From the NCBI GenBank assembly GCA_016125355.1, contig WGLX01000011.1, positions 1-60,263 on the forward strand: a stretch of DNA of 60,263 bases, in the 5' to 3' direction. The notes beneath the pieces are model-generated. The model was not told where the DNA came from and did no database searches. It saw only the letters and a list, made by a program, of their open reading frames with translations. The position numbers were made by a program, and so were the translations under genes. Below, in pieces: positions 3,383 to 27,975 of this stretch; position 1 is the first letter of the stretch; every line of letters starts with the position of its first letter. The DNA comes from Actinomycetales bacterium. Lineage in GTDB: Bacteria > Actinomycetota > Actinomycetes > S36-B12.

Positions 3383-4795
3383 TCAGTGCGCCGGACACAG
3401 GTCTCGCCCGAGCTCGGCGGCGACCGCGAGTGTCTCGCGAACGTCGTCGTCGGTCGTGCGGAAATTGGTGAAGCACGGACGCAGCCAGATCTCGCCGTCG
3501 ATCACCGCCGGCGAGAGGTAGACACGGCCGTCCTCCTGGATGGCGCGGCAGAGCGCGGCATTGTGCTCATCCACGTCCGGGCACCCCGGCAGGACGTGCT
3601 GGATGGGTGTGATGCTGAGCTGCGGGGGATGCGCGCGGGTCCGGAACTCGGGATCCGCCGAGGCGAGGTCGTACATCAGCCGAGCCTGCCCGATATTGCG
3701 GTCGATGGCGTCGCGGAACGCCTGTGCGCCGTGGACGCGGAAGGCCAGCCACAGCTTCAGTGCTCGCAGGGGTCGGGAGTACTCGAGGGTGATGTCGACG
3801 GCGTTGAGCTGCTCGTCCTCATGCGGGATGTAGGCCTCGTCGTGCGAGAAGGTGGCCGCCAGGTCGGACATCCGACGCACGAGCACGGCGCTGCAGGCCT
3901 TCGGGACGAACAGCCACTTGTGCGCGTCGACGCTGAGCGAGTCGACGCGATCCAGCCCGGCGAACCGGAAGCCCGACGACGCGGACGCGGCCGCCGGGAG
4001 CCCGTAGGCGCCGTCGACGTGGAGCCAGACTCCGCGGTCGCGGCACACGTCGGCGATGGCGTCGATCGGGTCGACGGCTCCCGTCAGCGTGGTGCCGCCG
4101 GTCGCGACGACAGCGATCGGCGTGACGCCCTCCGCGATGTCCTCGTCGATCTGCCGGGCGAGGTCGACGGGGTCCATGCGTCGCAACTCGTCGATGGCGA
4201 TGTCGCGAACGTTCTCGCGGCCGATGCCGAGCAGCTCCGCGGCCCGGGTCACCGAGTAGTGGGCCTCATCGGAGCAGTACAGCCGGGGGCGACGGCCGCC
4301 CATGCCGGTGGTCCGGCAGCCGGGAAGGGCCCGCTCGCGTGCCGCGGCGAGCGCGGTGATGTTGCTGATCGTGCCGCCGCTGGTGAACGAGCCGGCGCCC
4401 GCGGGGAAGCCGAGGAACTCGGCGAGCCACGCGATCGCCTGCCGGTCGAGGTACGAGGCGGCGCGTGCGTCAAGGGCCAGGTTGATGTCGTACGAGTGGG
4501 CGAGCAGGTCGGCGAGCGCGCCCACCTCCAGGCCGCTGGACCCGATGTAGGCGAGGTAGCGCGGGCGGGCCTGAGCCAGCGAGGTATCGAGGACCTCGGC
4601 GGCCAGGTCGAGGTCCTCGATCACGTCTCCGGGATCGTCGGGCAGCGGCTCCCGCAGGGTCGCGATGAGCTCCGGCGACGGCAGCGCCTCCACCTCGCGG
4701 GCATGGTCGAACTCGTGCCACGCACGTGCCACCAGGCCCGCCGCGTGCTGGAGCGCCTCCTCGCGCCGGGCTCCGAGCTTCAGTCGTCCGGGCAT
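3383..4795 (-). CDS. PLP-dependent group II decarboxylase (aromatic amino acid / glutamate decarboxylase-like)
   Basis: 470 residues. PLP anchors are visible: His179 in DEAHYS for ring stacking, Asp261 in HVDGAYG pairing with the pyridine nitrogen, and Lys293 in DAHKW forming the Schiff base. The family decarboxylates L-amino acids such as tyrosine, DOPA, tryptophan or glutamate, and some members are amine oxidases or aldehyde synthases. The frame stays open upstream to 5278, but that part is antisense to the reductase gene's own frame. The ATG at 4795 lies one base after the reductase stop and gives the normal family length. It could feed amino acids into an amine or arylacetaldehyde route in this operon; the substrate is unproven. 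Confidence 0.88.
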   Translation of the reverse strand: MPGRLKLGARREEALQHAAGLVARAWHEFDHAREVEALPSPELIATLREPLPDDPGDVIEDLDLAAEVLDTSLAQARPRYLAYIGSSGLEVGALADLLAHSYDINLALDARAASYLDRQAIAWLAEFLGFPAGAGSFTSGGTISNITALAAARERALPGCRTTGMGGRRPRLYCSDEAHYSVTRAAELLGIGRENVRDIAIDELRRMDPVDLARQIDEDIAEGVTPIAVVATGGTTLTGAVDPIDAIADVCRDRGVWLHVDGAYGLPAAASASSGFRFAGLDRVDSLSVDAHKWLFVPKACSAVLVRRMSDLAATFSHDEAYIPHEDEQLNAVDITLEYSRPLRALKLWLAFRVHGAQAFRDAIDRNIGQARLMYDLASADPEFRTRAHPPQLSITPIQHVLPGCPDVDEHNAALCRAIQEDGRVYLSPAVIDGEIWLRPCFTNFRTTDDDVRETLAVAAELGRDLCPAH

Positions 4796-4796
4796 G

Positions 4797-5990
4797 TCAC
4801 GCTCCCTCCGCTTGGCTGGCTCGCTCGGCCAGGCGCTTCCGGTACGGGACGAGGTCGGGCGTGCGGTTGATGCCGAGGACCCCGATGAGTCCATCGTCGT
4901 CGCGGTACTCGACGATGCAGTCGGAGTCGACGTCGCCCTCGACCACCTCGACGCTCGTGGCCAGGCCCGGCAGTCCGAACGACTGCAGGCTGATGTCGTA
5001 CTGGTCGGACCAGAAGGACGGCATCGCGGTGAACGGGCCACGATCCGGAGCCTCCCCGAGCAGCAGTGCGGCGAGCGTGCGGCCCGCGCGGCGCCCGGTC
5101 TCCGTCGGCATGTTCCAGTGCTCGATGCGCAGGGGACCAGGCCCGGCAAGGGCGAGCGGGTACCGCGCGATGTCGCCGACCGCCACCACGGGGGCGTCCG
5201 TGCCCTGGACCTGCATCCCGCTGTCCACGAGGACACCGTCGGTGAGGTCCAGCCCGTTGCCGGCCAGCCACTCGACATTCGGCTGCGTCCCGACGGCCTC
5301 CACGATCACGTCCGCCGGCACGATGCGCCCGTCATCGAGCACGGCGGCCTCTGCGGAGTCGACTCCCTCGAAGGCCGTGACGGTGCGTCCGAGGGCGAAC
5401 TCGACGCCATGCTCCTCGTGGCGGCGGCGCATGGCCGCGCCCACCTCCCGGCCGAGCGGCCGGATGAGCGGTTCCTCATCGACGGCCACCAACAGCGCGT
5501 CCGCGCCGAGCGCCCGAGCGGTGGCGGCGACCTCGCAGCCGATGAAGCCGGCGCCCAGCACCACCAGGTGGGAGCCGGGAGCCAGCCGCTGGCGGATGTG
5601 CTCGGCGTCCTCGACCGTTCGCAGCGGGGAGCGACCGCCGGCGGGACCGGGAATCGGCAGGCGTCGTGGCCGAAGGCCGGTCGCAACGACCAGCCCGTCG
5701 AACGGGAGGACGGTGCCGTCGGCCAGCGTCACGGTGCGGCCAGCGAGGTCCGCTCCGGCGACAGGGGAGCCGAGCCGCCACTGCACGTCGTCGACCCCCG
5801 CCTTGCGGCGGAACTCGAGCCCAGCCGGGTCGATGGGGCCGCTCAGGGCCTGCTTCGACAAGGGCGGGCGGTTGTACGGGTGATGCGGCTCCTCGCCGAC
5901 GACGGTGATCTCGCCCGAGTAGCCGGCGGCGCGCAATGACTCCGCGGCACGAAGGCCGCCAAGACCGGCTCCTGCGACGACGACGCCCAA
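4797..5990 (-). CDS. FAD-dependent NAD(P)H:ferredoxin reductase (rhodocoxin/putidaredoxin reductase type)
   Basis: About 397 residues. It has an N-terminal FAD beta-alpha-beta motif (VVVAGAGLGGLRAAESL), the YNRPPLSK segment typical of P450/dioxygenase ferredoxin reductases, a central NAD-binding motif (VVLGAGFIGCEVAA) and a C-terminal FAD contact (VGDIARYPL). It follows the ferredoxin gene and should reduce it to supply electrons to an oxygenase, plausibly one of the three P450s in this window. The start is uncertain. A TTG at 5990, five bases after the ferredoxin stop, puts the FAD motif right at the N-terminus and is preferred. A GTG at 6026 would overlap the ferredoxin gene by 31 bases. 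Confidence 0.87.
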   Translation of the reverse strand: MGVVVAGAGLGGLRAAESLRAAGYSGEITVVGEEPHHPYNRPPLSKQALSGPIDPAGLEFRRKAGVDDVQWRLGSPVAGADLAGRTVTLADGTVLPFDGLVVATGLRPRRLPIPGPAGGRSPLRTVEDAEHIRQRLAPGSHLVVLGAGFIGCEVAATARALGADALLVAVDEEPLIRPLGREVGAAMRRRHEEHGVEFALGRTVTAFEGVDSAEAAVLDDGRIVPADVIVEAVGTQPNVEWLAGNGLDLTDGVLVDSGMQVQGTDAPVVAVGDIARYPLALAGPGPLRIEHWNMPTETGRRAGRTLAALLLGEAPDRGPFTAMPSFWSDQYDISLQSFGLPGLATSVEVVEGDVDSDCIVEYRDDDGLIGVLGINRTPDLVPYRKRLAERASQAEGA

Positions 5991-5995
5991 GGCGG

Positions 5996-6187
5996 CTACT
6001 CGACCGTGATCGCCTGCATGGGGCACACGTCGGCGGCCCGTTCGGCGTCGGCCCTTCGGTCCTCCCCGACCTCTGCCGCGGCGACGCAGGTGTCGCTCTC
6101 ATCGAGCCCGAACAGGTCGTCGGCCTCGAATACGCACTGCCCATAGCCCTGGCACTTGTCGCGATCGACGACGATGCGCACGGTCAC
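5996..6187 (-). CDS. small 3Fe-4S-type ferredoxin of P450 systems
   Basis: 63 residues with the short actinobacterial ferredoxin pattern: first cysteine cluster in DKCQGYGQC and the final Cys-Pro in VCPMQAITVE. Spacing with a non-cysteine residue at the position that would bind a fourth iron is typical of 3Fe-4S ferredoxins that reduce bacterial P450s. The downstream reductase gene completes an NAD(P)H-reductase-ferredoxin chain. No P450 lies in this operon, but one lies at 14137-15396 with the same putative operator, and two more lie further right. Confidence 0.88.
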   Translation of the reverse strand: MTVRIVVDRDKCQGYGQCVFEADDLFGLDESDTCVAAAEVGEDRRADAERAADVCPMQAITVE

Positions 6188-6210
6188 TGCTTCTCCCTCA
6201 AGTCGGCTGC

Positions 6211-7020
6211 TCAGACGGGCGAGGACGTGTCGGTCAGCAGGGTGCCGCCGGCGAACGACGTGCCGACCTCGCAGTAGTACCCGGCGATGATCTCATCGAC
6301 CGGAAGCAAGGTGGCGGGTTCGTCCCAAGGGGAATCGAACAGGCTCAGCTCGGCGTCGCCCTTCCACGGCTGGCCGAGGTCGACGTCGACCCCGCCCATC
6401 GTGATGATCTGCTGGTGCGACATGCCCGCGCCTGGCGTGATGGACGGCATGTAGCGGTGGTGGACCATCTTGTGGGCGTTGACGAACCCGTTCGACTCGG
6501 CGGGTTCGCGCAGCGTCACCTTCGCCGTGGCGAGGCGATGGTCGTACGCGGCCAGAGAGGCGCCGAAAGTGCCGCCCTCGGCGATGCGCGGAGCAGCGAC
6601 GCCGCGGTTGTACGGCCGGGTGACGTAGATGCTGCCCAGCTTCTTCGGGTAGCCCTGGAACCAGCCGCGCCCGATGGCGAAGTCCGTCGTCACCCAGATG
6701 AGGACGCATCGGCTGTAGGTGACGCCCTGGTACTTCGCGCGCACGACGACGAACGCCTCGAGGTACTGCGAGCGCGCCGGATCGAGCAGTTCCTCGCCCC
6801 CCGTGCTGCAGGACTGCCAGTCGGCCCAGATGAACGCGACGGCGCCGGGATCCTCGTTCGCGAGCTCCAGCTCGGTGGGAAGGATGGCCCGCACGTTGGC
6901 GGGATCGGTCCGGTACTCGACGGTGAGCAGGGTCCCCGAGTAGTACCAGGGCATCTCCGGGACCAGCGCGGTGCGGCCGGACTCGGTGTAGGGCGGGAGG
7001 AATCCCTGCGCGTTCGTCAT
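6211..7020 (-). CDS. acetoacetate decarboxylase family protein
   Basis: 269 residues. The segment FQGYPKKLGSIY matches the lysine-pair region of acetoacetate decarboxylases, where the second lysine forms the Schiff base. The ATG overlaps the stop of the upstream fumarylacetoacetase-family gene in an ATGA junction, which fixes the start. Some relatives are aldolase-dehydratases or other beta-keto acid enzymes rather than true acetoacetate decarboxylases. In a ring-cleavage operon it more likely processes a keto-acid intermediate than acetoacetate. Function beyond the family is inference. Confidence 0.85.
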   Translation of the reverse strand: MTNAQGFLPPYTESGRTALVPEMPWYYSGTLLTVEYRTDPANVRAILPTELELANEDPGAVAFIWADWQSCSTGGEELLDPARSQYLEAFVVVRAKYQGVTYSRCVLIWVTTDFAIGRGWFQGYPKKLGSIYVTRPYNRGVAAPRIAEGGTFGASLAAYDHRLATAKVTLREPAESNGFVNAHKMVHHRYMPSITPGAGMSHQQIITMGGVDVDLGQPWKGDAELSLFDSPWDEPATLLPVDEIIAGYYCEVGTSFAGGTLLTDTSSPV

Positions 7021-7901
7021 GCCTGGTCCTTCTGCTCGACGGTCGAGGGGTAGAGGTCCTTCGAGGGCGTGCGGATGCCGCGGAACTCCCAGTCCCCGCC
7101 CATGGCCGTGGAGATGACCTCCTCGCTCTCGGTGGGCTGGGCGCCGCAGTCGTCCCGGATGGGGACCGGGCCCTGCACGATGGTGTTGCTGAGGGTGCCG
7201 AGCCCCTCGACCTCCACCTCGACGACATCCCCGGGGTAGACCGTGCGCGAGAACGCCGGGGTGCCCGAGAAGAGGATGTCGCCGGGCACCAGGGTGATGG
7301 TGCGTGCGATGTCGGCAACGAGGTAGTGCATGTCCCACTCCATCTCGGCGGTCGTCGAGTCCTGCTTGACGACGCCGTTGACGCGGGTCTGGATGCCCTT
7401 GTCGTGGAAGTCCCAACCCGTCACCAGGCCCGGTCCGATCGGGGCGAGGGTGTCGGAGCCCTTCACGCGCAGCATCGAGCCCGCGTCCGTGTCGCGGAAG
7501 TCGTGCAGGCCGTAGTCGTTGCCCACGGTGTAGCCGGCGATGTAGTCGCCGGCCTCGTCGGGTGAGACATTGCGGCAGGTGCGTCCGATCACGATGACGA
7601 TCTCGCCCTCGTAGTTGAGCCACTTGCAGCGCTCCGGCCGGACGACCGCCCCCTTGTGGGAGTTCAGCGCCGTGATCGGCTTGTGGAAGTAGGTCGGCGC
7701 CGCGGGCAGCTTCGTCATGAACTCCTCGGTGCGCGAGGCGTAGTTCAGGTGGACGGCGATGATCTTCGTCGGCTCCACGGGGGGAAGGTGGATGGCGTCC
7801 TCGACGCCGACCACGCGCCCGTCGGGTGCGACCAGCTCGTCGCCGTGTCGCACCACCTGCACAGGCGAGCCCTCGAGGAGGATCCGGCGGTACTCCGTCA
7901 T
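7017..7901 (-). CDS. fumarylacetoacetate hydrolase family protein (HpaG-like isomerase/decarboxylase or hydrolase)
   Basis: 294 residues with the FAH fold. Metal-binding acids lie in LNYEGEIVIVIG, followed by NDYGLHDFRD, the KGSDTLAPIGP segment and the terminal PGDILFSGTP. In homoprotocatechuate degradation this family supplies the bifunctional 5-carboxymethyl-2-hydroxymuconate isomerase / OHED decarboxylase; other members hydrolyse acylpyruvates. The ATG at 7901 overlaps the dioxygenase stop (ATGA), and its neighbours are the matching dioxygenase and semialdehyde dehydrogenase. That context supports a role just after ring fission. The exact reaction cannot be chosen from sequence. Confidence 0.88.
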   Translation of the reverse strand: MTEYRRILLEGSPVQVVRHGDELVAPDGRVVGVEDAIHLPPVEPTKIIAVHLNYASRTEEFMTKLPAAPTYFHKPITALNSHKGAVVRPERCKWLNYEGEIVIVIGRTCRNVSPDEAGDYIAGYTVGNDYGLHDFRDTDAGSMLRVKGSDTLAPIGPGLVTGWDFHDKGIQTRVNGVVKQDSTTAEMEWDMHYLVADIARTITLVPGDILFSGTPAFSRTVYPGDVVEVEVEGLGTLSNTIVQGPVPIRDDCGAQPTESEEVISTAMGGDWEFRGIRTPSKDLYPSTVEQKDQA

Positions 7902-8794
7902 GCAGCAGCTCCCTTTCGTGTCCATCCCGTCTCCGGGCGGTCGAACCACACGTGCACCTGACTGGTGCCGATGGAGTTCTCGTAGTCCCCGTACTGCACG
8001 CCCGGAGCGGCGAAGTCGCGCTCCCCGAGGGCCGCGGCCATCATCAGGTAGTGCGCGAACTTGCCCTCGGGACGCACGGTGAGGAAGTCGTCCATGGTGT
8101 CGAGCACCAGGTCGTGGCGGCCCTCGAAGAACCAGCCCAGCCGCTCGTGGTCCATGTCGCGGGCCTTCTGGCTGATGATGTGCGACGGGTCGCTCGCCTC
8201 ATGCTTCCGCAGCTCCTTGAGCGGGTAGAAGGTGTGCGAGAGCGAGCCGGTGGCGATGATGATGACCTTGCGGTCCACGGCCTCGATGGCCTCCCCGATC
8301 GCCCGGCCCACGCGCAGGAAGTCGTCGGTGTCTCCGGTCTGGCACACGCTCATGGACAGCCACTGCTTGTCCAGCCCCTTGCCGAGGTAGGACCAGAGGT
8401 TGATGGAGGGGTAGTACAGCGGCAGGTAGGGATCGTCGAGCGGAGTGATCCAGGTGCCGTTCGACTCGGCGCGGGCGCCAATGGCCTCGGCCAGTTCGCG
8501 ATCGCCCCGCCACTCGTAGGGAATGCGGCACATGCCGCGGGGCAGCTCCTCCGCGGTGAACAGGCCGGCGCGAAGGTCGTGCGAGGTGACGACGAACTCC
8601 ACGGTGGTGAACCAGTGCGAGTCCAGGACGATCACCGTGTCGTAGTCGAGCGTCTCGAACTTCTCCGCGCGCAGGCGTCGCAACGCGGGGACGAGGGAGA
8701 TCTCCTTGCCCTCGTTGAGCTCGAGCCGCGTCCTCTCGGGAAGCATGATGGTGGGGACATGCGACAGCAGTCCGGCACCCACGACCTCACCCAT
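7898..8794 (-). CDS. class III (LigB-type) extradiol dioxygenase, HpaD-like
   Basis: 298 residues similar along their length to the LigB-fold 3,4-dihydroxyphenylacetate 2,3-dioxygenase of Escherichia coli. The N-terminal SHVPTIML carries an iron-ligand histidine, LDSHWF a second, and ATGSLSHTF the acid-base histidine. Enzymes of this family open catechols next to the diol using Fe(II). The start at 8794 lies two bases after the stop of the aldehyde dehydrogenase gene; the downstream FAH gene overlaps by four bases. The gene set dehydrogenase-dioxygenase-FAH is that of the homoprotocatechuate meta pathway, so a catechol with a short side chain is the likely substrate. Confidence 0.88.
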   Translation of the reverse strand: MGEVVGAGLLSHVPTIMLPERTRLELNEGKEISLVPALRRLRAEKFETLDYDTVIVLDSHWFTTVEFVVTSHDLRAGLFTAEELPRGMCRIPYEWRGDRELAEAIGARAESNGTWITPLDDPYLPLYYPSINLWSYLGKGLDKQWLSMSVCQTGDTDDFLRVGRAIGEAIEAVDRKVIIIATGSLSHTFYPLKELRKHEASDPSHIISQKARDMDHERLGWFFEGRHDLVLDTMDDFLTVRPEGKFAHYLMMAAALGERDFAAPGVQYGDYENSIGTSQVHVWFDRPETGWTRKGAAA

Positions 8795-8796
8795 GA

Positions 8797-10260
8797 CTAC
8801 TCCTTCCACCCGTTCGGTGCGTAGACGGTGTTCTTGACGTCGGCGTAGAAGTCGAAGGACCACACGCCGCCCTCCCGGCCGATGCCGGACTTCTTCGACC
8901 CGCCGAAGGGCGCTGACAGGTCGCGGACGAAGAAGCAGTTGACCCAGATCGTGCCGGCGACGAGGTACCTGCAGAAGTCCTCGGCCCGCTGGCGGTCACC
9001 GCTGACGACGCAGGCCGCCAGTCCGAACTCGGTGCCGTTCGCGAGTTCGAGGCCCTCCTCGTCGGTGTCGAACGTCTGCATGGTGAGGACCGGGCCGAAG
9101 ACCTCCTGGGTGAGGATCTCGCTACCGGCCGGTGCGTCCACGACGAGCGTGGGCCGGAAGTAGTGGCTCCCCAGCTCCGCGTTGACCTCGCCGCCGTAGG
9201 CGATCGTGGCGCCGTCGGCCCGGGCCCGGTCCACGAACCCCTGCACGCGCTCGATGTGCTTGAGGTGGATGTTGGGCCCGATCTGGGTCTCCTCGTCCCG
9301 CGGGTCGCCCTGCCGGATCTGCGCCGCCCGCTCGCGGAACCGCTCGGTGAAGGCGTCGGCGATGCCCCGCTGCACCAGCAGCCGGGTGCCGGCGAGGCAG
9401 ACCTGCCCCGCGTTGTCGTACTGCTCGATGGCCAGATCGACGGCGAGGTCGAGGTCCGCGTCGTCGAGGATCACCGTCGGGCTCTTGCCGCCCAGCTCGA
9501 AGGAGCAGGGCGTGAGGTTGTCGGCTGCGGCGCGGGCGATGACCTTCGCGGTGGGCACCGATCCGGTGAAGCAGATGCGGGCGACGTCGGGATGGGACGT
9601 GAGGGGTGCTCCGGCCTCGGTGCCGAAGCCCTGGACCACGTTGAAGACCCCGTCGGGGAGCCCTGCCTCGTGGGCGAGGTCGGCGAAGTAGGACGCGGTG
9701 AGCGGCGCCCACTCCGGCGGCTTCAGGACGACCGTGTCCCCGGAGGCGAGGGCGGGGCCGATGCGCCAGGTCGCCAGCATCAGCGGGGCGTTCCAGGGCG
9801 TGATGATGACGGCGACGCCGGACGGATCCCAGGACACGTGGTTGGTGTGGCCCCGCGTCTCGAACTCGGGGTGGTGCAACCGGTTGATGGCGTAGTCGGC
9901 GAAGAAGCGGATGTTCATGGCCACCCGGGGCATGACGCCGCGCCGGTGGGAGCGCAGGAGCGAGCCGTTGTCGAGGGTCTCGATCTGCGCCAGTTCCTCG
10001 ACGTGCGCCTCGATCGAGTCCGCGAGACGGAACAGGATCTCGCCGCGCTCCTCGGCGGTCATGCGGGACCAGACGGGGAAGGCGGCCTTGGCGGCGGCGA
10101 CGGCAGCGTCGGCCTCAGCCCGGCCGCCGCGGGAGATGTGCCCGAGCACGCGCCCGTCGACGGGCGACACGGACTCGAAGGTCTCGGCCGAGGCGATGCG
10201 CTGACCGCCGATCCAGTGCCGGGTGTCGACGTCGACGCCGGCGATGGTGATCGTGGACAT
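8797..10260 (-). CDS. NAD(P)-dependent aldehyde dehydrogenase, HpaE-like
   Basis: 487 residues. It has the full ALDH signature: ITPWNAP oxyanion Asn region, catalytic-base Glu in FELGGKSP and nucleophilic Cys in GQVCLAGTR. Position directly before an HpaD-like dioxygenase suggests oxidation of a ring-cleavage semialdehyde (5-carboxymethyl-2-hydroxymuconate semialdehyde in the known pathway). It is the first gene of the operon. A palindrome at 10301-10319, about 41 bases before the ATG, is one of five putative MarR operators. Confidence 0.9.
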   Translation of the reverse strand: MSTITIAGVDVDTRHWIGGQRIASAETFESVSPVDGRVLGHISRGGRAEADAAVAAAKAAFPVWSRMTAEERGEILFRLADSIEAHVEELAQIETLDNGSLLRSHRRGVMPRVAMNIRFFADYAINRLHHPEFETRGHTNHVSWDPSGVAVIITPWNAPLMLATWRIGPALASGDTVVLKPPEWAPLTASYFADLAHEAGLPDGVFNVVQGFGTEAGAPLTSHPDVARICFTGSVPTAKVIARAAADNLTPCSFELGGKSPTVILDDADLDLAVDLAIEQYDNAGQVCLAGTRLLVQRGIADAFTERFRERAAQIRQGDPRDEETQIGPNIHLKHIERVQGFVDRARADGATIAYGGEVNAELGSHYFRPTLVVDAPAGSEILTQEVFGPVLTMQTFDTDEEGLELANGTEFGLAACVVSGDRQRAEDFCRYLVAGTIWVNCFFVRDLSAPFGGSKKSGIGREGGVWSFDFYADVKNTVYAPNGWKE

Positions 10261-10319: not shown

Positions 10320-10366
10320 AAGCAGAATGGTCGTGAATAGTGCATCCTGTGCCCGGAGGAGGAGCC

Positions 10367-11059
10367 GTGTCCCGACCTGTCATCGCCGTTCCCGGCCGTT
10401 TCACCGAGTCCGCCAGCGCTCTGCGCTACCGGGGTGTCGTCGCTGCCCGCAAGCTGCTCGAGGCCGTGTGGGCGGCGGGGGGCGATCCGCACGTCCTCCT
10501 CCCGGCCGACGGAGCGGACGCCTTCGACTGGGCGTCCCGGCTGCGGGGGGTCGACGGGGTGCTCCTGCCCGGCGGGGGCGACGTCAACCCGCGCCGCTAC
10601 GGCGGGGACTCGACGCATGTGTCGCTGTACGACGTCGACGAGCTGCAGGACGAGACGGACTTCACCCTGGCCCGGTACGCCCTGGAGCATGGCGTGCCGA
10701 CCCTGGCCGTGTGCCGGGGCCTGCACGTCGTCAACGCCCTGCTGGGCGGCACGCTGGTGATCGACATGGACGTGCACCACCGGCACCACGTGCACGAGGT
10801 CTCCGTGGACGACCCGGCCGACGTGCTGGGCGTGGGCAACCGGCCGATCACCTGCTCGTGCTACCACCACCAGGCGATCGACCAGGTGGCGGAGGGCATT
10901 TCCGTCCTGGGACGTGCCGAGGACGGGGTCGTCGAGGCGGTCTCCATCGAGTCCGCCGGCTGGGCGGCCGGCATCCAGTGGCATCCGGAGGACACCTACG
11001 ACGTCGACCCGGATCAGCTGCTCCCGTTCCGCAAGCTCGTGGCCGAGGCCAGCCGGTAG
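10367..11059 (+). CDS. class I glutamine amidotransferase-like hydrolase, PuuD-type (gamma-glutamyl-GABA hydrolase family)
   Basis: 230 residues, peptidase C26 family. The triad is visible: Cys in LAVCRGLHVVN, and His and Glu in IQWHPED. Relatives hydrolyse gamma-glutamyl-GABA or other gamma-glutamyl amides in polyamine breakdown. The GTG at 10367 is preferred over the upstream GTG at 10340 because GGAGGAGG (10356-10363) sits just before it. It reads away from the ring-cleavage operon and shares its operator region. Two other glutaminase-type hydrolases and two glutamine-synthetase-like ligases lie within 20 kb, consistent with gamma-glutamylated intermediates. Confidence 0.87.
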   Translation: MSRPVIAVPGRFTESASALRYRGVVAARKLLEAVWAAGGDPHVLLPADGADAFDWASRLRGVDGVLLPGGGDVNPRRYGGDSTHVSLYDVDELQDETDFTLARYALEHGVPTLAVCRGLHVVNALLGGTLVIDMDVHHRHHVHEVSVDDPADVLGVGNRPITCSCYHHQAIDQVAEGISVLGRAEDGVVEAVSIESAGWAAGIQWHPEDTYDVDPDQLLPFRKLVAEASR

Positions 11060-11071
11060 TCGGGTGACGCC

Positions 11072-11566
11072 ATGGCCGACCTGAACCGCGCGAACGACCT
11101 GGCACACGTCCCGGACAGCGTCGCCGCCGCCGTGACGGCGTCCTCCGGGCTGGCTGCCGCCTCCGACCCGGGGCCGTTCTTCCACGGCACGAGCGTGCCG
11201 CTCGCCCCGGGTGCCCGGCTGGCCCCGGGGTACCCGTCGAACTACCGTTCCGACGTCCTCATGAACCACATCTACTTCACCGCGCTGAAGGATGGCGCGG
11301 GCCTCGCGGCAGAGATCGCCGTCCTGCTGACCGGCAATCCCACCGCCCACGTGTACCTGATCGAGCCGACCGGTGAGTACGAGAACGACCCGAACGTCAC
11401 CGACAAGAAGTTCCCCGGCAATCCGACCCGCTCCTATCGCTCCGCGCACCCGCTCGTGATCATCAACGAGGTCCACGATTGGGTGCGGCTGACCGACGAG
11501 CAACGCACCATGTGGCGGGAACGTCTCGCTGCCATGACTCCGGACAACGCCCCCATCATCAACTAG
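11072..11566 (+). CDS. arr: rifamycin ADP-ribosyltransferase family protein (Arr)
   Basis: 164 residues. After about 35 poorly conserved residues the sequence follows Arr closely: FFHGT (His38), GYPSNY, NHIYFTAL, then YLIEPTGEYENDP and KKFPGNPTRSYRS. The family transfers ADP-ribose from NAD to the C-23 hydroxyl of rifampicin. The gene starts 12 bases after the puuD-like stop, so it is probably co-transcribed with a catabolic hydrolase, which is unusual for a resistance gene. Whether it protects against a natural rifamycin or modifies something else is unknown. The N-terminal extension compared with short Arr proteins is noted. Confidence 0.88.
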   Translation: MADLNRANDLAHVPDSVAAAVTASSGLAAASDPGPFFHGTSVPLAPGARLAPGYPSNYRSDVLMNHIYFTALKDGAGLAAEIAVLLTGNPTAHVYLIEPTGEYENDPNVTDKKFPGNPTRSYRSAHPLVIINEVHDWVRLTDEQRTMWRERLAAMTPDNAPIIN

Positions 11567-11572
11567 GGGAGG

Positions 11573-12070
11573 TCAGTCCTCCTCGACGGCGGTGACGAGG
11601 GTGCGGAGCATCTCGGCGGCGTCCTCCTTCTGGCCACGGGGCAGGAGCCGGGTGACTTCGCGCTCCTGCGCGTTGATCTGCGGGAAGATCCGCGTGATCA
11701 ACCGCTTGCCGCTCGGGGTCAGCGCTACCAGCACGAGGCGGCCATCCGCGTCGCTCTTGGTGCGCTGCAGGAGGCCGCGCCTCTCCAGCGTCGCGAGCAC
11801 GCCGCTCAGGGTGGCCTTGGAGACGCCGACCTCCTCGGCGACGACCCGGGTCTCCGCGGGTCCCCAGATCCAGGTCACCCACAGGACGACGAAGGCCGTC
11901 CACGTGAGGTCCGCCGGCGTGAGCACCACGCGCTCCATGTGATTGCGCACCGCGTTGGCCGCGCGGAACAGGTTCGACACGACATGCATGGACTCCATGT
12001 CCAGTTCGAGACCGGCGATGCGCGACTCTGCGGCTCGCTCGGTCTCGGCCAACGTGTGTGGTCCGGCCAC
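11573..12070 (-). CDS. MarR family transcriptional regulator
   Basis: 165 residues with a central winged helix-turn-helix: VAEEVGVSKATLSGVLATLE is the recognition helix region, followed by the wing KSDADGRLVLVALT. MarR proteins usually bind palindromes as dimers and release on binding an aromatic ligand. The GTG start at 12070 has GGAGGG just upstream. It lies in the middle of the catabolic island, and a copy of the shared palindrome sits 53 bases upstream of its start, so it is the obvious candidate regulator of itself and of the four other marked promoters. Confidence 0.9.
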   Translation of the reverse strand: MAGPHTLAETERAAESRIAGLELDMESMHVVSNLFRAANAVRNHMERVVLTPADLTWTAFVVLWVTWIWGPAETRVVAEEVGVSKATLSGVLATLERRGLLQRTKSDADGRLVLVALTPSGKRLITRIFPQINAQEREVTRLLPRGQKEDAAEMLRTLVTAVEED

Positions 12071-12122: not shown

Positions 12123-12140
12123 TCGTTTGGGCCCTAAGAA
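12123..12140. promoter_or_regulatory. putative MarR operator 2, upstream of the marR gene
   Basis: TCGTTTGGGCCCTAAGAA, core GTTTGG-GC-CCTAAG, the weakest palindrome of the set. It overlaps the stop codon of the Rieske-like gene and lies 53-70 bases before the MarR start, where autoregulation would be expected. Confidence 0.5.
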
Positions 12141-13150
12141 CCTTCGGCCGCCCGCAGCGAGGCCACGATCTCGCGGATCTTCAGGCCGACGGCGTCCGCA
12201 TTGACGTTGACCTCGGGGCCCGGCCCGTCGATGTCGAGGACGTCCTGCACGATCTCCATGGCATCGATCACGCGGTCGTAGTAGTCGGTGAAGATGCTGT
12301 CGAGGTACTGGTCCACCGCCCGGTTCCCCAGCGCGAAGTCGCGGCTCACCGCCCAGAGGAGGCGGCTGCTGGACTCGTCGATCGGCGTGACCAGCTGGGT
12401 GAAGCGCAGTCGCACCCAGCTGCCGTCCTCGCCCTGCGCGTCCCAGTGGTCGACCCACACGGCCGGTGAAGGGAAGAAGCCGGACTGCTCCGTGCGATAC
12501 GGCGCATCGAGGGGGCAGCCCACGATCTCGGCCTGCCATGCGGGCAGGGGCGCGGGCGGGAAGTCGCGATGCAGGGAGACCGAGGTCTCGCTCACCACGA
12601 CGTCCAGAGGCGGGGGCGCCGTGTCGAGGACCGCCGGCGCGATCTCGGGTGCGACGAAGGGCACCTGTGTCACGTCGGCGAAGTTCTCGTGCAGGAGCAG
12701 GAAGGACGCCAGGACCTCCTCCTCCCCGGACACCGTCGACCATGAGTCGCTGTCCAGCCAGGGCAGCTCGGGGATCCGGTGCAGTGCGGCGCGCCCGGGC
12801 TCGCCGAGCCAGACCCAGACGAGGCCATCGGACTCACGCACCGGGTACGAGACGACGCGGGCGCCATAGGGCACGTGCGGCTGGGTTGGCACCGAGACGC
12901 AGGCCCCATCGGGCCCGAAGACGAATCCGCAGAGGCCACAGCGCACGGTGTCGCCGATGAGCTCACCCGCGCTGAGCGGGTAGGCGCGGTGGGCGCAGCG
13001 GTCCTCGAGGGCGACGGCGACGCCGTCCACCGTGCGGAAGAGCACGAGCGGGAGTCCCGCGGCGCGGATCGGCAGGAGTTCGCGGTCGACCTCGTCGGAC
13101 GTGGCGGGTGCGTACCAGCAGTCGCGCGGGATCGCAGGGGGTGTCTTCAT
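12134..13150 (-). CDS. Rieske-type oxygenase-like protein with degenerate metal sites
   Basis: 338 residues resembling the single-component oxygenases of the vanillate demethylase group: N-terminal Rieske domain (about 10-110), then a catalytic-like domain. The first Rieske motif is intact (Cys52, His54 in RCAHRAYPLS). In the second, RCGLCGF, Cys71 is present but the expected histidine is Cys74. In the mononuclear-iron motif ENFADVTQVPFVA, Asp159 is kept while the two expected histidines are Gln162 and Ala167. The reading frame is intact and operonic, so this looks like a deliberate loss rather than decay. Normal hydroxylation by this protein is unlikely. It ends an operon with a P450 and an iron-sulfur flavoprotein reductase. 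Confidence 0.85.
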   Translation of the reverse strand: MKTPPAIPRDCWYAPATSDEVDRELLPIRAAGLPLVLFRTVDGVAVALEDRCAHRAYPLSAGELIGDTVRCGLCGFVFGPDGACVSVPTQPHVPYGARVVSYPVRESDGLVWVWLGEPGRAALHRIPELPWLDSDSWSTVSGEEEVLASFLLLHENFADVTQVPFVAPEIAPAVLDTAPPPLDVVVSETSVSLHRDFPPAPLPAWQAEIVGCPLDAPYRTEQSGFFPSPAVWVDHWDAQGEDGSWVRLRFTQLVTPIDESSSRLLWAVSRDFALGNRAVDQYLDSIFTDYYDRVIDAMEIVQDVLDIDGPGPEVNVNADAVGLKIREIVASLRAAEGS

Positions 13151-13161
13151 CCTCGGCTCCC

Positions 13162-14133
13162 TCAGAGGTCGAGCGTCAGTCGGCCGGACCGGCAGCGGGA
13201 CACGCAGATCATGATGGTCTCGTTGCTGGCCTTCTCCTCGTCGTTGAGGACGGAATCGCGGTGGTCGACGTCACCGTCGATCACCACCGTCTCGCAGGTG
13301 CCGCAGATGCCCTCGTGGCAGGAGCCCAGCACACTGATGCCGTGGTCCTGCACGGCATCGAAGATCGAGCGGTCGGCGGGGACCGTGATCGTGATCCCGG
13401 TGCGGGCCAGCTCGACCTCGAACTCGGTGTCGACCGCCCCTTCGGTGGCCTTGGCGGCGAACCGCTCGAGGTGGAGGCTGCCGGGCGGCCATGACCCGCA
13501 GCGCTGCTCGACCGCGCCCAGCAGGCCCTCGGGTCCGCACGTGTAGACCAGCGTGCCCGGACGCGGTGTGCCGAGCCGCTCGTCCAGTGCGGAAGTCATG
13601 AGCGCGACGTCATTGCCGGGCAGGAGGGTCACGCGGTCGCCGTACTTCGTGAGCTCCGGAAGGAATGCCATCGAAGCCTCGCTGCGGCCGCCGTAGAGCA
13701 GCGACCACTCGGCTCCGGCCGCCTCGGCCTCGGCGATCATCGGCAGCATAGGGGTGATCCCGATGCCGCCCGCGATGAACACATAGCGGGGCGAGGCCAC
13801 GAGGGGGAAGTGGTTGCGGGGGCCGCGGATGCGGATCACGCTGCCGTTCTGGACGCTCTCGTGGACGAAGCGCGACCCGCCTCGGCTGTCGGGAGCGTTG
13901 AGGATCCCGACGGTGAAGCGCTGGCTGTCCGCCGGCGAGCCGCAGAGCGAGTACTGGCGGGTGATCTCCGGGGTCAGGATGAGGTCGATGTGCGCACCCG
14001 GGGTCCACTCCGGCAGCGGCTCGCCGTCAGGGTGGACCAGGGTGACCGTCACGACGTCCTCGGCGACGGTCTCGTACGACTCGACGACGAGGTCGCTCTC
14101 GAACTCCCGGAGCCTGGTCTCGGTCTCCGTCAT
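13162..14133 (-). CDS. phthalate dioxygenase reductase-type flavoprotein with C-terminal plant-type [2Fe-2S] domain
   Basis: 323 residues in the order flavin domain (RQYSLCGSP, about 67-75), NAD domain (GGIGITPM, then YTCGPEGLL), and ferredoxin domain with CHEGICGTCE plus the distal Cys near MICVSRC. The family moves electrons from NAD(P)H to Rieske oxygenases, and some members serve P450s. It sits three bases after the P450 gene and 11 bases before the Rieske-like gene. Since the Rieske-like protein lacks catalytic ligands, the P450 may be the true electron acceptor. Confidence 0.9.
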   Translation of the reverse strand: MTETETRLREFESDLVVESYETVAEDVVTVTLVHPDGEPLPEWTPGAHIDLILTPEITRQYSLCGSPADSQRFTVGILNAPDSRGGSRFVHESVQNGSVIRIRGPRNHFPLVASPRYVFIAGGIGITPMLPMIAEAEAAGAEWSLLYGGRSEASMAFLPELTKYGDRVTLLPGNDVALMTSALDERLGTPRPGTLVYTCGPEGLLGAVEQRCGSWPPGSLHLERFAAKATEGAVDTEFEVELARTGITITVPADRSIFDAVQDHGISVLGSCHEGICGTCETVVIDGDVDHRDSVLNDEEKASNETIMICVSRCRSGRLTLDL

Positions 14134-14136
14134 CGG

Positions 14137-15396
14137 CTACTTGGCCTTGATCCGGACGGGGAAGCGCTTGACTCCGTTGACGAAGTTGCTGCGCACCCGC
14201 TCGATCTCGCCGGTCTGCTCGATGGAGGCCAGCCGGGGGAGCAGCTCCTCGAAGAGGATCCGGATCTCCAGGCGTGCGAGGTTCGCCCCCAGGCAGGTGT
14301 GCGGCCCCTTCCCGAAGGTCATGTGGTCGTTCGGGAAGCGGGTGAGGTCGAGGTCGTAAGGGTTGTCGAACTTCTGCGGGTCGCGGTTGCCGGCCGCGAA
14401 CCACGTGACGATCTTGTCGCCGGCCTTCACCGTCTTGCCGTGCAGCTCGACGTCGCGCGTGGCGGTGCGCCGGAAGTGGTAGACCGGGGATGCGTAGCGG
14501 ATGAGCTCCTCGACCATGCTTTGCGACTTGTCCATGTTGTCGAGGAAGTACTGCATCTGATCGGGGTTGTCCATGAGCGCCTTCATCGACAGCGTCATGG
14601 CCTGGCGCGTGGTCTCGTTGCCGGCGACGACGAGCAGCAGGAAGTAGTTGTCGAAGTCGGTGTCGGACAGCGGGATCCCGTCCTCGGGGAGCCGGTTGAC
14701 CAGCTTGCTGACCAGGTCGTCCCCGTCGCCGCCGCGGCGCTGCTTGGCCAGCTCGCGTCCGTACTCGAAGACCTCGAGCGAGACCGGGTTGCGGAAGGGC
14801 AGGTGCTTGTACTTCTGGGCCTCATCGCTGTCGACGAGCACCTTGGAGAGCTCCGGATCGGAGAAGCCGACGATGGTGTTGCCCCATTCGATCAGCGTCG
14901 GGGTCATCTCGTCGGGCACGTCGAGCAGGCGGGCGAGCACGTTGATGGGGAAGTCGGCGGCGATGGCCTCGACGAAGTCGACGTCCTCCTTCTCAAGGGC
15001 CAGGTCGATCGACGTGCGGGCAAGTCCGCGGAGGAAGTCCTCATATCGGCGGAGCTGGGCCACGCTGAAGTCGCGGGCGAGCAGCTTGCGGAGCGCTTGG
15101 TGGCGGGTGCCGTCGCTCTCCAGGATGGAGCGGCGCAGGTCCTGGAACTCCTCGGGCGGCTCCTCGAGGTTCGTGAACTTCGTCGACGTGAACGTGTCCG
15201 AGTCCTTGTCGACCATCTCGATGTCGTCGTACTGGACGACGGACCAGAATCCGTGCCCGTCGCTGTGCAGCTCGTCCTGCCAGTGCAGCGGGTCCTCGTT
15301 GCGGAGGGTCTCGAACATCCCCCACGCCTCGTTGTGGACGAAGTAGTCCAGGTTGGTCAGGTCGACGTCCGCGAGGGGAATGGGAGTGGGTTGCAT
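14137..15396 (-). CDS. cytochrome P450
   Basis: 419 residues. The I-helix oxygen-binding motif is VAGNETTR, the K-helix ExxR is EELIRY, and the haem-binding loop is FGKGPHTCLG with thiolate Cys368. The C-terminus SNFVNGVKRFPV is shared with the P450 at 25662-26900 and resembles CYP125/142-type enzymes, though the substrate cannot be assigned. First gene of the P450-reductase-Rieske-like operon. A perfect copy of the putative MarR operator lies 35-53 bases upstream, directly after a plausible -10. Confidence 0.92.
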   Translation of the reverse strand: MQPTPIPLADVDLTNLDYFVHNEAWGMFETLRNEDPLHWQDELHSDGHGFWSVVQYDDIEMVDKDSDTFTSTKFTNLEEPPEEFQDLRRSILESDGTRHQALRKLLARDFSVAQLRRYEDFLRGLARTSIDLALEKEDVDFVEAIAADFPINVLARLLDVPDEMTPTLIEWGNTIVGFSDPELSKVLVDSDEAQKYKHLPFRNPVSLEVFEYGRELAKQRRGGDGDDLVSKLVNRLPEDGIPLSDTDFDNYFLLLVVAGNETTRQAMTLSMKALMDNPDQMQYFLDNMDKSQSMVEELIRYASPVYHFRRTATRDVELHGKTVKAGDKIVTWFAAGNRDPQKFDNPYDLDLTRFPNDHMTFGKGPHTCLGANLARLEIRILFEELLPRLASIEQTGEIERVRSNFVNGVKRFPVRIKAK

Positions 15397-15524: not shown

Positions 15525-16235
15525 TCACGGCGAGTGGGTGGCCACCCGGTCGATGAACGCGTCGACGAGCGTGTGGGCACGACGCGCCGCGTCCTCGCCC
15601 TCGGCGAGGGTGTGCTGGTAGAGGATGTCCGGGTCCTGGCCGTCGGCCTCCGCACCGGCGCGACCGCCGTTCTCCAGCCAGCCTTGGAGGCCGGCCGCCG
15701 TCAGCTCGGGGTGGAACTGCACGGCGAGGTTGCGTCGGAGCACGAACGCCTGCGAGGCCACGGAGTTCCGCGCGATCTCGCGGGCCTCGGGCGGGACCTG
15801 CCATCGGTCGTAGTGCCAGTGGAACCACGGGCCGGGCCCCACGAGGTCGGGTTCCTGGCTCCAGATCGGTGTCCACCCGATCTCCGGCTTGGGGGCCCGA
15901 GCCACCGATCCCCCGTGGGCGCGGGCCAGGAGCTGGCCGCCGAAGCAGATGCCGAACACCGGGACGCCGAACTCGTCGGCCTCCCTCAGCCATTCGATCT
16001 CGGGAAGGAGCCAGTTGCCGATGGTCTCGTCGTCCCACGCCCCCCAGGGGGCACCCATCACGACGAGCGCGTCGAAGCCGCGGGGGTCGGGGAAGCTGTA
16101 GGGCTGGTTCGGCGTGTGGAAGTTCTCCGGGGCCACCACGATCTCCTCCACCACCGCGTAGCCGCGGTGGGCGAACCGCTCCGCCACCGGGCCGGGTGGA
16201 CTGACGTGGTCATGCTGCAGGAACAGTGCGCGCAA
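15525..16235 (-). CDS. class I glutamine amidotransferase-like hydrolase
   Basis: 236 residues with a GMP-synthase-like glutaminase fold. The nucleophile elbow is GICFGGQLLA, and VQFHPE supplies His and Glu. Standalone proteins of this type hydrolyse gamma-glutamyl amides or peptides. It is divergent from a glutamine-synthetase-like ligase (start 16362), the pairing seen in aniline and alkylamine catabolism where one enzyme forms and the other removes the gamma-glutamyl amide. It resembles the hydrolase at 29323-30021, which also partners a glutamine-synthetase-like gene. Substrate unknown. Confidence 0.85.
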   Translation of the reverse strand: MRALFLQHDHVSPPGPVAERFAHRGYAVVEEIVVAPENFHTPNQPYSFPDPRGFDALVVMGAPWGAWDDETIGNWLLPEIEWLREADEFGVPVFGICFGGQLLARAHGGSVARAPKPEIGWTPIWSQEPDLVGPGPWFHWHYDRWQVPPEAREIARNSVASQAFVLRRNLAVQFHPELTAAGLQGWLENGGRAGAEADGQDPDILYQHTLAEGEDAARRAHTLVDAFIDRVATHSP

Positions 16236-16326: not shown

Positions 16327-16361
16327 TCTTGTCGGATCCGCCATCCATCGCAAGGAGACTC

Positions 16362-17720
16362 ATGCTTCACGATCTGGCCGAGACCCGCCGCATTCTGGAG
16401 ACCCAGGACATCGACGTCGTCCGACTGATCTTCCCCGACATCCTCGGGATCACCCGATCCAAGGACCTCCTCGTCTCGCAGATCGAGCGCGCGGCGGCCC
16501 ACGGTCCGGCGTTCTGCCAGGGCACCTGGGTGACCACGACGCGCGGCGGCGTCCTCGACGCCGGCGCCGGGACCGGCAGCATCGAGGATGGCCTGCCGGA
16601 CATGGTCTCCAAGCTCGACACCGACACGATCCGCCCGATTCCGTGGCTGCCCGGTGTCGCCTACGCCATCGCGGACATCGACAATCCCGACGGGTCTCGC
16701 AGCACCATCGCCCCTCGCGCCGTTCTCCGTTCCGTGCTGGACGAGTACGACAAGGAGGGCCTGATCCCGGTCTGCGGGCCGGAGCTCGAGTTCTACATCG
16801 CCCAGCGCACCGACGACGGCTGGGCTCGCTGCATCGACAAGACCGGACGGGTCTACATGACCGGTGCCCTCGTCGACCCCGCGGGTCACTACCTGCACCT
16901 CCTGCGGATGCTCGACCAGCTCAACGTGGGGGCGTTCGCCGGCAACCACGAGTTCTCTCCCTCGCAGTACGAGATCAACCTGTGGCACAGCGAGGCCATG
17001 GACGCAGCCGACCGCACGTTCCTCTTCAAGACTGCCGTCAAGGACGTCCTCGCCGAGCGCGGCGTCCTCGGCACCTTCCTCGGCAAGCCCTGGAACGACG
17101 AGGGCGGCAGCGGGTTCCACCTGCACTTCTCCGTGACCGATCCCAGCGGCATGAACAAGATGCACGACGGTGGCGCGGGTCTGTCGGAGGTTGCCCTGCA
17201 GATGATCGCGGGCGTCATCGAGCACGCCCCCGCCATCGCCGCCTTCACCAACCCCACCGTCAACGCCTACAAGCGCCTCGGGCCCGACACCCTCGCGCCC
17301 TACCGGTCCAACTGGGGCTACGACAACCGCTCCACGATGCTGCGCATCCCGCCGGAGCGGGGACAGGGGACCAGGCTCGAGCTCCGCATCGGTGACGGGA
17401 CGGCCAACCCGTACATCGTCCTGGCGGTCGTCCTTGCCGCGGCCCTCGACGGCGTCCGCCGCGGACTCACCCCGCCGCCGGCGGCCGAGGGCTGGGCCTA
17501 CGAGGACGAGAGCAGCCCGGTGCTGCCGATGACGCTGCGCGAGGCCCTGGATGCCCTCGAGGCGGACGGTGGCCTGCGCCACCTCCTTCCGAGCGACTTC
17601 ATCGACGTCTTCGTGACGATGAAGCGCGACGAGGCCGACCGGTACGACGCCGAGGTCGAGGATCCGTCCACCCGCGACACGACCCGCTGGGAGCTCGAGG
17701 AGTACATCGAGGACCTGTAG
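16362..17720 (+). CDS. glutamine synthetase-like gamma-glutamyl amine ligase
   Basis: 452 residues with GS catalytic-domain signatures: CGPELEFY (metal-binding acids), NHEFSPSQYEIN, GFHLHFSV, NPTVNAYKRL and TRLELRIGDG. The ATG at 16362 follows AAGGAG and is preferred over an in-frame TTG at 16329, which lies close to the operator. GS-like proteins outside nitrogen assimilation ligate glutamate to polyamines, ethanolamine, alkylamines or aniline. The divergent glutaminase-type hydrolase (15525-16235), the PuuD-like gene and a permease under the same putative operator support an amine substrate over ammonia. Confidence 0.88.
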   Translation: MLHDLAETRRILETQDIDVVRLIFPDILGITRSKDLLVSQIERAAAHGPAFCQGTWVTTTRGGVLDAGAGTGSIEDGLPDMVSKLDTDTIRPIPWLPGVAYAIADIDNPDGSRSTIAPRAVLRSVLDEYDKEGLIPVCGPELEFYIAQRTDDGWARCIDKTGRVYMTGALVDPAGHYLHLLRMLDQLNVGAFAGNHEFSPSQYEINLWHSEAMDAADRTFLFKTAVKDVLAERGVLGTFLGKPWNDEGGSGFHLHFSVTDPSGMNKMHDGGAGLSEVALQMIAGVIEHAPAIAAFTNPTVNAYKRLGPDTLAPYRSNWGYDNRSTMLRIPPERGQGTRLELRIGDGTANPYIVLAVVLAAALDGVRRGLTPPPAAEGWAYEDESSPVLPMTLREALDALEADGGLRHLLPSDFIDVFVTMKRDEADRYDAEVEDPSTRDTTRWELEEYIEDL

Positions 17721-27950: not shown

Positions 27951-27975
27951 ATCCGAGATGTCTGCAGGAGGTTCG

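Follow-up and report, generated by a model that had tools for sequence, protein, structure and literature searches.

What does a protein of the Rieske oxygenase family do when it has lost ligands of both of its metal centers, and what keeps its gene next to that of a cytochrome P450? These questions are raised by the window (the whole stretch of DNA analyzed here, 60,263 nucleotides), in which such a gene closes an operon ordered P450, reductase, Rieske-like gene, with gaps of 3 nt (P450/reductase) and 11 nt (reductase/Rieske-like gene). An earlier note on this DNA had described the gene as intact and part of this operon, and its 338-codon open frame and the short gaps bear this out. The operon and the residues considered below are as follows:

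14137..15396, (-) strand: cytochrome P450, CYP125/CYP124-like, operon gene 1 (Pfam p450)
13162..14133, (-) strand: NAD(P)H flavin and plant-type [2Fe-2S] reductase of the PDR/VanB type (Pfam Fer2, NAD_binding_1)
12134..13150, (-) strand: Rieske-oxygenase-like protein without the oxygenase ligands, 338 aa, operon gene 3 (intact ORF, Pfam, homologs)
12989..12997, (-) strand: first Rieske loop, Cys52-x-His54, invariant in 9/9 CHCC sequences
12929..12940, (-) strand: second Rieske loop, Cys71-x-x-Cys74 (CGLC; usually CxxH), invariant in 9/9 CHCC sequences and in two incomplete orthologs
12650..12676, (-) strand: remnant of the mononuclear iron motif, Asp159 (bridging), Gln162, and Ala167 (sequence, ortholog alignment)
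12269..12271, (-) strand: Val294, replacing the third iron ligand, Asp (alignment)

Family membership and ligand residues

Pfam detected a Rieske domain (PF00355, 8.5e-14) and a VanA_C domain (PF19112, 5.7e-22) in the 338-aa protein, both above the cut-off, and the nearest solved structure by sequence was that of dicamba monooxygenase (3gb4, 2.8e-23). The AlphaFold model (pLDDT 88.9), in which the Rieske and the catalytic domain are likewise both present, gave dicamba monooxygenase as its top fold match as well (3gob, TM 0.83, 25% identity). Judged by its sequence, the gene encodes a member of the vanillate/dicamba-demethylase-type (VanA/dicamba) Rieske oxygenase family, which it resembles in the full-length match, in both domains, in the fold, and in the adjoining VanB/PDR-type reductase. 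However, one of the four Rieske ligands is changed, and all three iron ligands are lost.

The Rieske ligand set consists of Cys52, His54, Cys71, and Cys74 (hereafter CHCC), that is, of three Cys and one His arranged as C-x-H and C-x2-C instead of the usual C-x-H/C-x2-H, while the 2-His-1-carboxylate iron site is replaced by Gln162, Ala167, and Val294. The CGLC motif and the exchange of two iron-binding histidines for Gln162 and Ala167 had been claimed in the earlier note, and the codons read from the window agree with it: TGC for Cys74 (12931-12929), CAG for Gln162 (12667-12665), and GCA for Ala167 (12652-12650). The third lost iron ligand, at Val294, is an addition to that account. Asp159, cited there as the residue of the mononuclear-iron motif that is kept, is indeed retained, but its counterpart in the D-x2-H-x4-H motif is the Asp whose role in dicamba monooxygenase is to bridge the two metal centers and not to bind the iron.

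Position 294 is Val in 13/13 sequences of the branch that contains the window protein and Asp in 44/45 demethylase sequences, with a gap in the remaining one. The phmmer alignment to dicamba monooxygenase is gapped near this position and would pair Asp292 with the third ligand instead; unlike Val294, residue 292 varies among orthologs. When eight positions were scored (four Rieske ligands, the bridging Asp, and three iron ligands), 43/45 demethylase and outgroup sequences were canonical throughout, and the two others had Tyr at 167 (L011) or a gap at the last position. The L011 protein (1375-2409, (-) strand) is of the demethylase type and carries its Tyr in place of the second iron His, all other ligands being canonical.

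Fixation of the ligand changes and structure of the clade

The CHCC set together with Gln/Ala occurs in 11/11 orthologous genomes (60-69% identity, two sequences incomplete), i.e., the window, G084, G007, G011, G009, G082 (partial), G077 (masked stretch), G909, L035 (a Nocardioides MAG), G825, and G191, the last with the iron-motif variant DVTQIPVLA, and the frame is open in nine of nine complete orthologs. Conservation among homologs and a possible wrong base were among the checks that the earlier note had put forward for these residues; the first came out in its favor, and identical residues across 11/11 genomes speak strongly against a base error.

The CHCC proteins form a group (support 100/99) within a 13-row branch (100/98), and both values are the same whether the ligand columns are included in the tree or not. 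This branch lies inside a clade of 26 sequences, supported at 100/98 in a 41-row tree and at 95/94 in a 38-row tree built without the ligand columns. L033 (taken as the same record as L126), L034 (partial), and L031 (masked stretch) were left out before the trees were built. The 41-row tree contained 15 of the 45 demethylase and outgroup sequences (13 chosen loci and two L056 genes), and the 38-row tree contained 12, the long branches of the second L056 gene, L057, and L080 having been removed. L056 itself (5947-8113) is an unannotated tandem pair of Rieske oxygenase genes on a Paraburkholderia hospita plasmid, the first of which is the closest outgroup of the clade in both trees.

Across the 13-row branch, ten sequences have Ala and three have Asp at position 167, and nine have Gln and four have His at position 162. 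On this alignment the oxygenase site is lost from the entire branch, the CHCC proteins being one of the outcomes inside it. In the four other sequences of the branch the Rieske ligands are broken too, the sets being CHDH (G872), CHST (G312), and DHSS (G208, G868). His54 and Asp159 are retained even in the DHSS sequences, so that the invariance of these two residues is no evidence of metal.

Elsewhere in the clade, the iron site is altered in ten sister sequences, nine of which retain all four Rieske ligands, which suggests that electron transfer may still matter in these nine proteins. Their first iron His is changed to Asp or Asn (G463, G702; G475, G842, G880, G450, and a Tsukamurella plasmid) or to Tyr (the second copy of G415 and a M. 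paragordonae plasmid); the first copy of G415 combines Asp at this position with Ser at one Rieske Cys. Fully canonical ligands are present in G477, G718, and G654. The Tsukamurella record bears the label "aromatic ring-hydroxylating dioxygenase subunit alpha," which, if the role proposed below is right, would be an example of how annotation can mislead on function. Asp at the first iron His (an Asp, His, Asp set) was seen in the Rieske oxygenase-like proteins L062, L118, and L064, which possibly still bind iron with altered chemistry.

The distribution of the clade is patchy. Members were found in 7/166 genomes of the window's order (E <= 1e-30; 16 more had the demethylase type only), in 11/394 genomes of the class (a twelfth match, G370, was a demethylase), in 1/396 genomes of a phylum draw (E <= 1e-90, with the best 5 candidates per genome scored), and in 7/249, 7/196, 2/198, and 1/1 genomes of further draws, all of these draws overlapping one another. 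With three members as queries, 527, 511, and 554 plasmid records were matched, of which the best 30, 8, and 12 were inspected; five plasmid regions were examined, and two of them, from Tsukamurella tyrosinosolvens and Mycobacterium paragordonae, carried clade members. Viral spread was considered and rejected, as a single scan of viral contigs brought up no relative and PHROGs assigned no family to the gene. Another candidate that we dismissed was a paralog doing the oxygenase work in the window's genome, where E <= 0.001 yielded just two weak matches of partial length (31% and 39%).

Linkage to the P450 and the reductase

The P450 (14137-15396) has CYP125MRCA (8vxi) as its nearest solved chain. 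Among solved chains, the reductase is most similar to the terminal parts of two long P450 chains, 6kbh and 6laa, presumably self-sufficient CYP116B enzymes, and then to phthalate dioxygenase reductase (2pia). In the window the P450 and the phthalate-family reductase are separate genes of one operon, from which we infer that they are partners.

A P450 profile was run on the ORFs around 28 clade loci (26 tree rows, L031, and L034) and around 22 demethylase loci with flanks of 6-10 kb, picked by hand among lower-scoring matches as controls. A P450 with its midpoint within 5 kb was present in 26/28 clade loci and in 0/22 controls; this count replaces earlier ones made with 1.5 kb flanks, which were unable to show absence of a P450. 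One of the two misses, L030, is a contig of 3.2 kb, and in the same genome a second contig has a 78% P450 fragment at its edge; in the other miss, G208, the P450 ortholog (61%) is on a different contig. The match in G654 is weak and 3.8 kb off. Throughout the 13-row branch and in its two incomplete members, the P450s are 60-78% identical to that of the window. The reductase directly precedes the Rieske-like gene in 28/28 clade loci, whereas in the controls it lies downstream, within 2 kb in 19/22 and at 5.7 kb in one, the search having found none in the remaining two. The lasting company of a P450, which the earlier note had asked of the homologs, is thus observed in nearly the whole clade. 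Since members with intact ligands also adjoin a P450 (G477 and G718, and more weakly G654), the clade forms a graded series.

In five sister sequences (L054, L063, L065, L121, and L122), the P450 and the reductase form one open frame. In L054 (3479-7011), as in the four others, the fusion of a P450 with a phthalate-family reductase is directly followed by a Rieske protein; these Rieske proteins have intact cluster ligands and Asn at the first iron His.

Selection on the gene and on its domains

NG86 estimates of dN/dS for nine pairs, rough at the present GC content and taken from hand-picked pairs that share members, gave 0.22-0.45 for the Rieske-like gene, against 0.18-0.47 for the reductase; the Rieske-like gene had the higher value in 7/9 comparisons with the reductase and in 7/7 with the P450. 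It is under purifying selection, yet it is the least constrained of the three genes of the operon. For the DHSS pair (L060, L123), the values were 0.25 for the Rieske-like gene vs 0.40 for the reductase, and the model of a DHSS member (pLDDT 91.1) has the helices and strands in the same order as the window protein.

These data bear on another explanation of the locus, namely a decaying oxygenase remnant or a sequencing error. Loss of ligands in several ways across the clade and the fast evolution of the Rieske-like gene, the fastest of the three in most pairs, would fit decay, but nine complete orthologs with open frames, dN/dS well below 1, CHCC and Gln/Ala states fixed over 11 genomes, and a conserved gene order make this explanation very improbable, and we rejected it. 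The statement of the earlier note that the gene carries no sign of decay therefore stands, with the reservation that it evolves faster than the P450 gene.

The two domains are not equally constrained. In the P450-linked clade, the ratio of Rieske to catalytic divergence was 0.83 for CHCC proteins (n = 9), 0.77 for ligand-broken (n = 4), 0.89 for iron-broken (n = 8), and 0.75 for canonical ones (n = 3), covering 24 of the 26 clade sequences (L066 and L055 fell in no group). In two demethylase groups of 15 and 11 sequences (26 of 45), the Rieske domain is the faster one, with ratios of 1.35 and 1.42. The three canonical P450-linked members show an equal shift, and hence it is not peculiar to the metal-poor forms. 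Relative constraint thus sits more on the domain expected to dock with partners, whether or not the Rieske cluster ligands are present.

This shift also affects the idea, related to the ligand-sensing role raised in the earlier note, that the old cavity binds an aromatic substrate and delivers it to the P450 or gates this enzyme. Retention of both domains is in line with it, as are a mean identity of 64% in the catalytic domain of CHCC sequences and 14 residues (among them W205, W232, D234, Y290, and Y291) that are invariant in the 13 branch sequences, absent from the 26 demethylase sequences, mostly located in the catalytic domain, and putatively lining the cavity. However, within the clade it is the catalytic domain that evolves faster, opposite to the demethylases, and a direct sign of ligand binding is missing. 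We consider substrate binding as the main function improbable.

Probable metal binding at the CHCC site

A change from His to Cys requires two base changes, and the loops of Rieske proteins are similar to those of rubredoxin and zinc ribbons. What such a change may do is illustrated by the Rieske ferredoxin ARF of Sulfolobus solfataricus, in which, according to the part of PMC2946596 considered here, the second-loop exchange His64Cys gave a low-potential [2Fe-2S] site, the exchange of the first His for Cys failed, and a triple-changed protein took a rubredoxin-like mononuclear site. The 3Cys-1His set proposed in the earlier note is chemically sensible in this light, as it matches the second-loop His64Cys exchange. 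ARF His64Cys is, though, a laboratory mutant of a ferredoxin, whereas the set of the window protein is natural, fixed, and carried by a full oxygenase scaffold.

One reading of the site is that the protein is an obligate relay, i.e., a ferredoxin-like 3Cys-1His [2Fe-2S] protein through which the P450 receives the electrons of the reductase. It would account for four ligand positions invariant in 11/11 orthologs, for a two-base change that hit the sole single substitution reported to keep the cluster in the archaeal scaffold (same part of PMC2946596), for the retention, by tree parsimony, of C52, H54, and C71 along the CHCC lineage, sisters having lost at least C71, and for CHCH being retained in nine of ten sister sequences with an altered iron site. 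On the other hand, (i) ligand-broken sisters have an orthologous P450 (60-63%) and reductase and no usable Rieske ligand set, (ii) a plant-type [2Fe-2S] domain is already part of the reductase, which is similar to the reductase portion of fused P450 chains, (iii) reductase and P450 are one chain in the five sister sequences mentioned above, and (iv) a fused P450 with such a reductase works alone (PMC11889516, in the part considered). An obligate relay is therefore unlikely. Of the service to the P450 suggested in the earlier note, the lasting link to P450 and reductase was confirmed, but electron transfer that requires the cluster found no support as stated there, sisters with similar neighbors having lost Rieske ligands.

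At the other extreme, Cys52, His54, Cys71, and Cys74 might hold a structural zinc or no metal at all, the protein being a pure scaffold. Sisters devoid of the Rieske ligand set exist, His54 persists in DHSS sequences so that invariance need not mean metal, and the mononuclear site of the triple-changed archaeal protein points the same way; the exact C, H, C, C set in every ortholog found and the [2Fe-2S] cluster of the single His64Cys variant (PMC2946596, same part) point the other way. We regard this reading as a little less probable than the relay, and a [2Fe-2S] cluster in the CHCC proteins as having slightly better than even chances.

Proposed role of the protein

The explanation that we favor, and consider probable, is that the Rieske-like protein is a pseudo-oxygenase which now acts as an accessory docking component, the third one, of a P450 system; the other readings partly overlap with it, and their likelihoods need not add up to certainty. 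A VanA/dicamba-type oxygenase subunit would have stopped activating oxygen and become a helper of the P450 and its PDR-type reductase. The Rieske domain, as the more constrained part, is most likely what docks with the reductase, the P450, or both, and the old iron pocket has perhaps been refilled by Val294, Tyr290, and Tyr291. A metal is probably still bound at the CHCC site. The best candidate is a low-potential [2Fe-2S] cluster, which would tune electrons or pass them on; a structural zinc is less likely. The function shared by the whole branch cannot, however, depend on the cluster, because the ligand-less sisters still adjoin the same kind of reductase and, in three of four cases, lie near the P450, and one pair of them is under selection; on the simplest reading it would be docking, gating, or substrate handling. 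Operon linkage is not proof of a complex, and complex formation, like metal content, pocket refilling, and an effect on P450 turnover, is something that we infer from the comparisons above.

If this explanation is true, bacterial P450 systems have an extra protein component, and a third protein might benefit P450s for which a reductase is believed to suffice. The clade would also offer a natural series leading from a complete oxygenase to a cluster-only partner and on to a cluster-free one, in which the noncatalytic contribution of the Rieske domain and the role of a 3Cys-1His set in the Rieske fold could be probed.

Comparison with known systems

The locus shares features with several described systems. 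Compared with VanA/dicamba-type demethylase loci, it has a P450 in the operon, and its reductase is upstream, not downstream. It resembles the self-sufficient CYP116B/P450RhF enzymes in the reductase, which is nearest to the ends of 6kbh and 6laa, and in the P450-reductase fusions of the sister loci, but differs from them in having a separate CYP125/124-like P450 and reductase and a Rieske-oxygenase-like third protein. In the part of PMC11889516 considered here, a fused CYP116B in which a phthalate-family reductase supplies the P450 is described to work without a third protein, Rieske-like or other, with 86% coupling on 2-hydroxyphenylacetate.

The logic of an oxygenase homolog retained as the helper of a neighboring enzyme is, we assume, also that of the P450-derived glycosyltransferase activators of TIGR04515. 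Only this logic is shared, as fold and partner are different and it is the P450 fold that serves as the helper there. NEET proteins have a CDGSH-type motif and a fold other than Rieske. The comparison with mitoNEET drawn in the earlier note holds for the 3Cys-1His ligand type (PMC8463382, in the part considered) but not beyond it, as the CDGSH-type motif is missing, no CDG occurs in the window protein, and the fold matches found were Rieske oxygenases, with no sign of relationship to the NEET/CDGSH family.

A search of the open-access literature, a weak test since most subscription journals lie outside it, gave, among the titles and abstract openings covered, no paper on a ligand-less, P450-linked Rieske oxygenase. 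In the part of a 2025 review of Rieske oxygenases considered here (PMC12445004), the Rieske set is 2Cys-2His, no self-sufficient Rieske oxygenase is known, and a Rieske oxygenase partnered with a P450 is not mentioned. The parts of the system are thus of known kinds, their combination did not turn up in the open-access literature searched, and there is a fair chance that it represents a new kind of P450 system. The fuller proposal is more tentative, its chances lying somewhat below even: a new three-component P450 system of actinobacteria with a rebuilt Rieske partner, a 3Cys-1His cluster that would be the first natural one on the scaffold of a Rieske oxygenase, and cluster-free sister branches, so that the change of a catalyst into a redox partner and then into a plain scaffold could be traced in living proteins.

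Neighboring genes and a possible pathway

The genes around the operon recur, in differing arrangements, at the 12 loci of the branch whose flanks reach 5 kb or more on at least one side, some of which end before the neighbors could appear:

7898..8863, (-) strand: LigB-type extradiol dioxygenase, HpaD-like (8/12 loci; below the NCBI cut-off)
8797..10260, (-) strand: HpaE-like aldehyde dehydrogenase (9/12 loci at >=60% identity; below the NCBI equivalog cut-off)
10340..11059, (+) strand: PuuD-like gamma-glutamyl hydrolase (10/12 loci)
11573..12070, (-) strand: MarR/HpaR-like regulator (12/12 loci)
15525..16235, (-) strand: class I glutamine amidotransferase-like protein (8/12 of these longer loci)
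16329..17720, (+) strand: glutamine-synthetase-like ligase, perhaps a gamma-glutamyl-amine synthetase (11/12 loci)

This gene content suggests a pathway of aromatic amine breakdown via gamma-glutamylation, because of the glutamine-synthetase-like, amidotransferase-like, and PuuD-like neighbors, and via ring cleavage of a homoprotocatechuate-like catechol, because of the HpaD-, HpaE-, and HpaG-like genes, all of which score below the NCBI equivalog cut-offs. By extension from these neighbors, the P450 may hydroxylate or demethylate an aromatic amine-type compound of the pathway.

Several other genes of the window were also observed. Near the catechol pathway genes, 3383-5278 (-) encodes a pyridoxal-dependent decarboxylase-like protein of 631 aa, and for its first ~230 residues Pfam gave nothing at E <= 1e-8. 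A homolog of the rifampin ADP-ribosyltransferase Arr (11072-11566, (+) strand), which lies between the PuuD-like gene and the MarR gene, scores 124.9 bits vs an NCBI equivalog cut-off of 130. A second P450 (18631-19800, (-) strand), a distant relative of the first with 24% identity in the aligned part, adjoins a luciferase-like F420-type oxidoreductase, and a second glutamine-synthetase-like ligase (27958-29322, (+) strand) is located about 10 kb from the first.
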